Below, one piece after another: positions 19,863 to 22,216 of a stretch of 64,000 nt of DNA; positions within the stretch are counted from its first letter, which is position 1, and every line of letters begins with the position of its first letter. The notes below the pieces were generated by a model. The model worked only from the letters and a program-made list of their open reading frames with translations, was not told the DNA's origin and did no database searches. This DNA is from Jiangella mangrovi. GTDB taxonomy: Bacteria > Actinomycetota > Actinomycetes > Jiangellales > Jiangellaceae. Where the stretch lies: assembly GCF_014204975.1 (NCBI RefSeq), contig NZ_JACHMM010000001.1, positions 2,418,001 through 2,482,000 on the forward strand, read 5' to 3'. A program made the position numbers and the translations under genes.

Positions 19863-20873
19863 ATGGCAGGAGCCCCGAACATTCGCGAGGTGGCGACGCG
19901 GGCCGGTGTCTCGGTCGGGACGGTGTCCAACGTCCTCAACCGTCCCGAGCTCGTGGCCGAGCCCACCCGCGACCGCGTCTATGCCGCCATCGAGGAACTG
20001 GGCTTCGTCCGCAACGACTCCGCCCGGCAACTGCGCGTCGGCCGCAGCCGCACCCTCGGCCTCGTCGTGCTGGACGTCGCCAACCCGTTCTTCACCGACG
20101 TCGCCCGCGGCGTCGAGGACACCGCCAACCAGCACGGCCTCGCCGTCATCCTCTGCAACACCGACGAGGACCCGCGCAAGGAGGCCTCGCATCTCGACCT
20201 GCTCGCCGAGATGCGCGTGCAGGGCGTGCTGATCAACCCCATCGACACCGACGGTCGCATCGCCGCGCTGCGCGGCCGCGGCACCCCCGTGGTGCTGTTC
20301 GACCGGCTCGGCGACCCCGACACCGAGTGCTCGGTCGCCGTCGACGACGTACTGGGCGGGCGACTGGCGGCGACGCACCTCGTCGAGACGGGCCACCGCA
20401 CCATCCTGTTCGTCGGCGGGCCGCTGACGCTGCGGCAGGTGCAGGAGCGCCACGAGGGCGCGTCGTCGGTCGTGTCGGCGACGGACGGCGCCGTCACCAT
20501 GGACGTCCTGACGACGACGGCGCTCAACGTGGCGGCCGGGCGGGCGGCCGGTGACCGGATCGCGGCGACGGCGTCGGCGGGCGGCCTGCCGTCGGCGATC
20601 TTCTGTGCGAACGACCTGCTGGCACTGGGCGTGCTGCAGGCGCTGACACACGCCGGCATCCGGGTGCCGGCCGACGTCGCGATCGTCGGCTACGACGACA
20701 TCGACTTCGCGGCGGCCGCGGCGGTGCCGCTGACCTCCGTGCGCCAGCCGCGGCAGCTGCTCGGCCGGACGGCGGCGGAGCTGCTGCTCGCGGAGACACT
20801 GGAGGAGCAGCACGTGCACCGCCAGGTCGTGTTCGAGCCCGAGCTGATCGTCCGCGACTCGTCGTCGGCGTAA
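19863..20873 (+). CDS. LacI family regulator, probable rhamnose repressor
   Basis: A 336-residue LacI/GalR protein. The N-terminal HTH is NIREVATRAGVSVGTVSNVL, followed by the hinge helix region SARQLRVGRSRTLGLVV. The remainder is a periplasmic-binding-protein-like sensor domain ending with CANDLLALGVLQAL and VPLTSVRQP. ATG 19863 lies 6 nt after TAAGCT with no ribosome site, so a leaderless mRNA is likely. Divergent position and the shared operator make it the probable repressor of rhaI-rhaM-rhaEW-rhaB; rhamnose or a phosphorylated product would be the inducer. Confidence 0.9.
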   Translation: MAGAPNIREVATRAGVSVGTVSNVLNRPELVAEPTRDRVYAAIEELGFVRNDSARQLRVGRSRTLGLVVLDVANPFFTDVARGVEDTANQHGLAVILCNTDEDPRKEASHLDLLAEMRVQGVLINPIDTDGRIAALRGRGTPVVLFDRLGDPDTECSVAVDDVLGGRLAATHLVETGHRTILFVGGPLTLRQVQERHEGASSVVSATDGAVTMDVLTTTALNVAAGRAAGDRIAATASAGGLPSAIFCANDLLALGVLQALTHAGIRVPADVAIVGYDDIDFAAAAAVPLTSVRQPRQLLGRTAAELLLAETLEEQHVHRQVVFEPELIVRDSSSA

Positions 20874-20892
20874 GCGGTGGCGGGGTTGGTTT

Positions 20893-21025
20893 CCCGTCCC
20901 CCTGCTGCCCATTCTCTTAGCCCCGGACGCGCGCCTCAAGCGGACCGGCGGGCGCGGGGCGCCCTGGGGGTCCGCTTGACCCGCACGTCCGGGGCCTAAG
21001 AACGGGCAGTTATCAGGGGGACGGG
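20893..21025. repeat. 133-nt giant inverted repeat
   Basis: The left arm (20893-20946) and right arm (20969-21025) pair over about 54 bases with only small bulges and a few mismatches. Near-identical blocks are CCCGTCCCCCTG, CTGCCC, TTCT, TTAG, CCCCGGACG and TCAAGCGGACC. The 22-nt centre contains its own perfect 6-bp repeat (GGGCGC/GCGCCC, 20950-20964). No open frame spans it. It is far longer than a terminator needs, so a transposed palindromic element or a structured RNA are both possible. Confidence 0.75.
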
Positions 21026-21116
21026 GGGAGTCTGGCGACGGGTGGGGCGTCCTGGCGGGCTGCGGTCTGGTGTGGTGTCCGCGATGTGGGATTTCGGGGT
21101 GTTTTCTGGGCCGCCC

Positions 21117-21176
21117 ACCACGTTTACCCGAGCCTCATCACGCCTGCAATCATGTTGGGGCTCGGGTAATCGTGGT
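21117..21176. repeat. 60-nt inverted repeat with 18-bp arms
   Basis: The left arm (21117-21134) and right arm (21159-21176) match over 18 bp with one mismatch, core TTACCCGAGCC / GGCTCGGGTAA, around a 24-nt loop. It follows the 133-nt hairpin by 91 bases in the same convergent intergenic region. Confidence 0.7.
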
Positions 21177-21277
21177 GATGTAGCGGATCGTTGATGATCA
21201 TCGCTGTCCACAGCCCGGCAAACGGGGCGAAACGGGGAGCCGACCTCATCCCCCCATCAAACCTCAGACTCCCCGGG

Positions 21278-22216
21278 TTACTCGTCCTCGACGATGGCCT
21301 GGATCTCGGCGACCGGGATGGGGGTGTCCTCCCACGGGGTCTCGAAGACCGCCGGCGCACCGTCGATCTCCATGACCTCGCCGTTGAGCTCGAACCGGAC
21401 CGTGTAGACCAGTCGCGCCTGGCCGGCGTACGCGGGGTCGCCGTCGACCGTCGCGGTGCCGTTGACCGACGCCTTCTCGTACACGTAGGTGCAGGCGTCG
21501 CTCTGGGTAACCGAGAACGGGCAGTTCAGCGTCGACGAGCCGTCGCCGGGCTGCACCTCGAGCCGCTCGGGCGTCGCGATGGCCACCAGGCCGGCCGCGG
21601 AGGTGCCGGTGAGCTCGGCGTCCGAGGCGCCGTCGGCCCAGTACCAGGTGTCGAGCGTGACGTAGCTCCGCGCCGGCGGGTTGAACGCGAGGTCGAAGTC
21701 GGGCGCGACCAGCTGGCCGAAGGCCTGGATGGCCTCCTGCTCCCAGTTGATGACGTCCTCGGGCGGCTCGAGCCACATGTTCTCGTAGATGACGACGTCT
21801 TCCTCGGGCGGCTGCGTGAAGCACGTGAGCACGGCGTAGACGGCGTCGTCGGGCGTGCCGGCCGGCTTCTCGGGCCAGTCGTCGGGCGTGGGGGCCGTGG
21901 GCGGCGGGCTGTAGACGTAGCAGCTGAGGTCGCCGTCGCAGTAGGACCAGTCGTAGTTGAAGATGTCCTCGCGGCCCAGGTAGCACTCGGGCTCGGTGCT
22001 GCCGCCGTCGTCGCCACCGCTGCCGCCGTCGTCACCGTCATCGCCGCCGTCGTCGCCGGTGCAGGTGTTGACGTAGTCCCACACTCCGGGGCTGGTCTCG
22101 ACGTACTGCAGGCAGTCGTCGGCGGCCGCGGGGGACACCTGCACGAGGGTGATGACGGTGGTCCCCACCAGGGTGACGGCCGCCAGGAGGAGGCGCGCGA
22201 GCCGGCGCGTCAGCAT
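21278..22216 (-). CDS. Secreted cysteine-containing protein of unknown function
   Basis: A 312-residue exported protein that I do not recognise. It has an N-terminal signal peptide (LARLLLAAVTLVGTTVITLV, cleavage near SPAAADD), an Asp/Gly-rich linker (DDGGDDGDDGGSGGDDGG) flanked by cysteines, then a folded region with further cysteines (CYLGRE, YCDGDLSCYV, LTCFTQPP, LNCPF, DACTY) likely to form disulfides. There is no membrane anchor or sortase signal. ATG 22216 overlaps the upstream lipoprotein gene by 7 bases, so the two are probably one operon and may work together at the cell surface. Confidence 0.75.
   Translation of the reverse strand: MLTRRLARLLLAAVTLVGTTVITLVQVSPAAADDCLQYVETSPGVWDYVNTCTGDDGGDDGDDGGSGGDDGGSTEPECYLGREDIFNYDWSYCDGDLSCYVYSPPPTAPTPDDWPEKPAGTPDDAVYAVLTCFTQPPEEDVVIYENMWLEPPEDVINWEQEAIQAFGQLVAPDFDLAFNPPARSYVTLDTWYWADGASDAELTGTSAAGLVAIATPERLEVQPGDGSSTLNCPFSVTQSDACTYVYEKASVNGTATVDGDPAYAGQARLVYTVRFELNGEVMEIDGAPAVFETPWEDTPIPVAEIQAIVEDE

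Follow-up and report, generated by a model that had tools for sequence, protein, structure and literature searches.

IS608 and ISDra2, of the IS200/IS605 family, transpose as single strands and have an orientation that is tied to replication. REPINs and BIMEs are paired REP sequences mobilised by RAYT transposases (PMC3116915, PMC3733652), and REP-like populations have been tied to these enzymes. Insertion of IS200/IS605 elements targets the lagging strand, and only the IS200 subclass has been reported from Actinobacteridae (PMC6006769). Here, we describe a palindromic repeat from Jiangella mangrovi, found in a stretch of 64,000 nt (the window), that we judge to be new: a non-autonomous mobile repeat, REPIN-like and unusually large.

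Positions 20893-21025 of the window form one long imperfect hairpin of 133 nt, and the sequence folds far beyond chance. For the stretch 20880-21040, the minimum free energy was -115.2 kcal/mol on the + strand (z = -7.6), and z reached -10.9 on the - strand; on neither strand did any of 200 dinucleotide shuffles fold as well. The giant hairpin that the preliminary description placed in this convergent intergenic region is thus confirmed, coordinates included. To its left, a LacI-family regulator (+ strand) has its stop codon at 20873, and to its right, a convergent gene that matches no Pfam family (- strand) has its stop codon at 21278. The hairpin base is a perfect 12-bp stem (20893-20904/21014-21025) with an unpaired, one-sided 4-nt bulge on its 3' side that reads TTAT in the window copy and CTAT in most copies. 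Above it lies an arm pair of 27 nt with 89% complementarity (20920-20946/20969-20995), and the apex is a nested GC-rich stem. Repeat-related sequence continues to the right as far as about 21270, and 20893-21025 represents only one end of a larger element. A full element consists, in order, of a giant hairpin (+), a spacer, a conserved core with a second hairpin, and an inverted giant hairpin (-), with a length of roughly 500 bp (usually 450-700 bp). The two ends, A and B, differ both in inner motif (A, GGAGTCTGGCGACGG; B, AGACCCTGGGCACGCC) and in outer flank. The window copy contains the following features.

20874..20892, + strand: outer flank on the A side, GCGGTGGCGGGGTTGGTTT; most A-end hairpins have a G/T-rich motif here, of which this is a degenerate form (outer-flank comparison)
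20893..21025, + strand: giant hairpin H, the A end; family consensus of 134 nt (own-genome copies and a 40-copy alignment with compensatory changes)
21025..21042, + strand: A-end marker GGGGAGTCTGGCGACGGG, a conserved motif adjoining the hairpin on its inner side; occurs in nearly all A ends
21077..21236, + strand: conserved core block (about 40 further own-genome copies; 20-copy alignment with a mean column identity of 88%)
21116..21177, no strand assigned: second hairpin, within the core; 25-nt arms, 88% complementary; most of 20 copies retain the inner stem
21191..21213, + strand: conserved core motif, TTGATGATCATC plus CTGTCCACAG (20-copy core alignment)
21237..21270, - strand: outer B-side flank; the B-end giant hairpin between flank and core is missing in the window copy

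The window copy therefore has its A hairpin, core, and outer B flank and lacks the B-end giant hairpin. Positions 21234-21276 align at 84% with the outer flank next to the B hairpin in another copy (L020), and 21232-21275 align with that of a third (L012). Loss of the B-end hairpin makes the window copy a decayed member. In J. rhizosphaerae, 14 copies align over their entire length with almost constant spacing; there, the letters of the core hairpin are rewritten (CACGAGGATTAC...GTAATCCTCGTG) and its pairing is kept. The spacer and core contain no gene. The second half of the core motif resembles a DnaA box by eye only, a reading that we dropped, as J. rhizosphaerae copies conserve the motif poorly. 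A divergent hairpin subfamily (L305-L313) comprises about 11 copies, mostly covering model positions 8-127, with outer and inner motifs of its own and inverted pairs at two of its loci.

The repeat sits about 60 times between genes of the host chromosome. A BLAST search of the whole 7.16-Mb genome with the hairpin found about 40 places, and a covariance model built from 40 hairpin copies retrieved 70 copies at E <= 2e-16, plus about ten of the divergent subfamily. Among 12 Jiangella genomes, ten carry between 46 and at least 74 copies each; the remaining two yielded no copy (G005) and one weak match (G002). The preliminary description had allowed for a chance or decayed structure, present once and unconserved; about 70 full copies in the host genome and the presence of the hairpin in 10/12 Jiangella genomes dispose of that reading. 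Outside the genus, only isolated weak matches were retrieved, none convincing, and an exact scan of public genomes with a 20-nt pattern returned almost only Jiangella records (single matches in Kribbella, a planctomycete, and Coproplasma are probably due to chance). A phage or plasmid origin was rejected, as searches of viral contigs and of phage and plasmid collections retrieved nothing. Most copies of one genome share 75-92% identity, so no very recent transposition is seen.

The distribution of the element varies between species. In the closest relative (G011; flanks 92% identical), the same gene pair lies about 25 nt apart and the element is absent. At this site, two other relatives have a gap of 10-35 nt, one has a different full element, one has a partial element, and two have unrelated hairpins. 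For ten insertion sites of J. rhizosphaerae, a query joined from short coding flanks was used to find the counterparts in three relatives; most lacked the element, and two were occupied in one relative (G006). Given the empty window site in the closest relative and the mostly empty J. rhizosphaerae sites in other species, the element comes and goes, with gain and loss being indistinguishable from presence and absence alone. Because a minority of sites are common to different species (L105/L118 and L103/L113), part of the distribution is inherited, and the shared sites may be old. The flanks at occupied and empty sites are too divergent for exact ends or a target-site duplication to be read. 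At several sites where relatives lack the element (L270, L271, L272, L273, L121, and L122), other long palindromes, such as GTTGATCATGG...CCATGATCAAC, lie between the same genes. This suggests that Jiangella harbors several unrelated families of intergenic hairpins.

Pairing within the giant hairpin is well preserved. In an alignment of 40 hairpins, changes on both sides were found in 12/33 pairs (64 cells), and 96.1% of cells pair. None of 500 shuffles reached these values, and sliding the partner by one column lowered pairing to below 50%. The alignment shows that stem complementarity is maintained; recognition as RNA, recognition as DNA, or correction between the arms would each give the same signal. 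In several J. rhizosphaerae copies (L162, L178, and L203 among them), the arms near the apex differ by what looks like a flip (TCAAGTCCGC versus TCAAGCGGAC) with complementarity kept, which would fit an inversion of the apex or a correction of one arm against the other. Rfam returned no match above the gathering score for the element. The two weak matches to the second hairpin (21116-21177), both to microRNA families (MIR9677 and mir-584), scored far below gathering and were taken as chance.

The copies avoid divergent promoters and prefer the 3' ends of genes, convergent ends above all. Of 50 own-genome copies, 26 are in convergent, 21 in tandem, and 3 in divergent intergenic regions, compared with 37, 85, and 63 gaps, respectively, in the sampled genome (convergent enrichment, odds ratio 4.3, p = 2e-5; divergent depletion, odds ratio 0.12, p = 3e-5). 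The background consisted of intergenic gaps of at least 60 nt in 464 kb of sampled genome, with genes called by a codon-usage gene finder trained on the window. The A hairpin often lies 30-40 nt past a stop codon. Strong intergenic hairpins in general are also commonest at convergent ends in the host genome. The same placement habits have been described for REPs (PMC3733652), and the element accounts for many of the long convergent intergenic regions of Jiangella.

In the host genome, the orientation of the element follows the replication fork. Read from A to B, all copies at 0-1.24 Mb are on the - strand, nearly all at 2.44-3.9 Mb are on the + strand, and nearly all at 4.06-7.12 Mb are again on the - strand. 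Since GC skew gave too weak a signal for locating the origin, the replication arcs were drawn from coding-strand bias, which switches near 1.7 and 4.2 Mb in the stretches sampled, and from dnaA (Pfam Bac_DnaA) with two parS-like sites at 1.92 Mb. The dnaA/parS position was found after the orientation flip had already been placed between 1.24 and 2.44 Mb. When the origin is set at 1.92 Mb and the terminus, inferred from coding bias, at about 4.15 Mb (the arcs are unequal), copies are distributed 12+/3- on the rightward-replicated arc and 4+/37- on the other (p = 1.1e-6). The bias holds at convergent sites taken alone (5+/2- versus 2+/16-; p = 0.007), where orientation cannot be set by the direction of a neighboring gene. 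In a second genome (G008), for which 17 copies were assigned by eye, the pattern was similar, at p = 0.055 only. We note that the 1.2 Mb around the origin (1.24-2.44 Mb of the host chromosome) lack any copy (p = 0.002 for such a gap); outside this region, the density is about one site per 110 kb.

No mobilizing enzyme or autonomous copy was found, and no copy at the sampled loci carries a transposase of its own. The PF01797 profile (Y1/RAYT, TnpA) matched in 0/12 Jiangella genomes, while control genomes gave matches. Mobilization of the RAYT/IS200 type was rejected for this lack of a Y1 gene in 12 genomes, with the reservation that PF01797 covers TnpAREP only partly (PMC6006769). Three hairpin pairs about 3 kb apart had the appearance of an autonomous form, which was rejected: the intervening genes belong to IS110, IS5-like, and IS256-type insertion sequences, some of them 99-100% identical from site to site. 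The genes in the longest copies are thus those of nested insertion sequences, and a scan of the sampled loci retrieved no insertion sequence bordered by the ends of the element alone. Nested IS5-like or IS110-type insertion sequences were noted at L303:1458-2488, L304:1493-2489, L058:4680-5709, and L316. Four of the five full copies of the IS5-like element lie inside repeats, in two copies readably at CTAG within a GACTTCACTAG motif. The IS110-type element is found inside two of the repeats.

Taken together, these results indicate that the hairpin is probably the A end of a mobile element in Jiangella that resembles REPINs and is non-autonomous, with two inverted 134-nt imperfect hairpins around a non-coding core, copies inserted in trans in a fork-coupled manner, and a decayed copy in the window. 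On this model, an enzyme supplied in trans would recognize the ends in their folded form, probably where the replication fork exposes single-stranded DNA, and would insert copies in a fork-dependent orientation. Copies would then survive where they are least harmful, namely, behind stop codons and especially between convergent genes. A more specific version, in which a single-strand, fork-coupled element with giant hairpin ends owes its movement to an enzyme that is no relative of the Y1 HUH transposases, in hosts devoid of REP-type transposases, is offered only tentatively and is the less probable form of the proposal. The miniature transposable element of the preliminary description survives insofar as the repeat is dispersed, non-coding, intergenic, and palindromic and is present or absent at given sites between species; the target duplication of a MITE could not be read in the divergent flanks, and no autonomous partner was found at the sampled loci. 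A true MITE, derived from a cut-and-paste (DDE) insertion sequence and having palindromic inverted ends of unusual length, is improbable. Inverted ends, empty sites, and the absence of coding capacity would all fit such an origin, but the divergent flanks leave no target duplication to be read, the IS110, IS5-like, and IS256-type elements are nested passengers, no insertion sequence at the sampled loci is bordered by these ends alone, and orientation by replication arc is unusual for the class.

Placement at gene ends raises the alternative of a selected bidirectional terminator or insulator that blocks read-through into the opposite gene and, by whatever means it spread, is kept for its use. 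In this proposal, the two convergent transcripts would each run into a separate giant hairpin soon after the stop codon, both in the same polarity. The frequent position of the A end 30-40 nt beyond a stop codon, the enrichment at convergent ends (where strong hairpins are commonest genome-wide), and the unrelated long hairpins at the same orthologous sites in other species are all consistent with this role. However, the hairpin has no T-run and so does not have the GC stem plus T-run of an intrinsic terminator, the sole terminator-like match of the region lies elsewhere (20858-20884), close relatives manage with a hairpin-free gap of 10-35 nt at the window site, and such a role does not predict a replication-linked orientation. 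We therefore regard a terminator function as unlikely to explain the family. The structured RNA also put forward in the preliminary description finds its stem pairing maintained and nothing specific in its favor. A small RNA or 3'-untranslated-region element, acting in trans or stabilizing mRNA, would account for the compensatory changes, and read-through transcription from flanking genes is plausible; a DNA-recognized palindrome or arm correction during replication yields the same covariation, though, Rfam offers only the two sub-threshold microRNA families, and dozens of copies occupy changing sites. This makes an RNA function very improbable. Strand bias by replication arc and the copy-free region from 1.24 to 2.44 Mb around the origin at 1.92 Mb could also point to a role in marking chromosome polarity, as KOPS or AIMS do, with copies retained for the way they face the fork. 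Against it, density does not rise toward the terminus, sites outside the origin region come only about once per 110 kb, and two Jiangella genomes do without the element, so that we consider this reading hardly credible.

Compared with described systems, the Jiangella element is closest in its habits to REPINs and BIMEs. Both consist of paired inverted palindromes that are non-coding and present in many copies, both lie between tandem and convergent genes near 3' ends, and both serve as landing sites for insertion sequences. The REP-like palindrome of the preliminary description accordingly holds for a dispersed, non-coding, intergenic palindrome and fails on the REP unit size and on the RAYT/Y1 transposase. 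REPIN and BIME hairpins measure 20-40 nt, whereas those of Jiangella measure about 134 nt and enclose a conserved core of 160 bp; the former carry a GTAG tag and depend on RAYT, whereas the latter lack the tag, and PF01797 retrieved no Y1/RAYT gene in the genus. CGTC-tagged REPs (PMC3733652) similarly lack a dedicated transposase, are paired, and lie at 3' ends, but they have short stems of 8-9 bp and are mostly alphaproteobacterial, while the CGTC of Jiangella is part of the paired stem base in a hairpin of far greater size. IS200/IS605 elements share hairpin ends with a conserved one-sided bulge and an orientation tied to replication; in contrast, the Jiangella hairpins are several times larger and inverted, and TnpA (PF01797) was not found in the genus. 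Because unit size and the Y1 transposase search both disagree, the element is not filed under the REP/RAYT or IS200/IS605 families. MITEs are likewise short, non-coding, and dispersed with inverted ends; of their other hallmarks, a target duplication could not be read here, and a parent insertion sequence was not found at the sampled loci. The GTTRRRY-type ends of integron attC sites were not seen by eye in the element. A mobilizing enzyme, if found, would represent either a new type of transposase for hairpin-ended elements or a sign that an ordinary recombinase suffices. The Jiangella family thus combines the habits of REPs (inverted pairs, 3'-end location, avoidance of promoters, and insertion-sequence landing) with much larger hairpins, no Y1 transposase found, and a clear link to the direction of replication.
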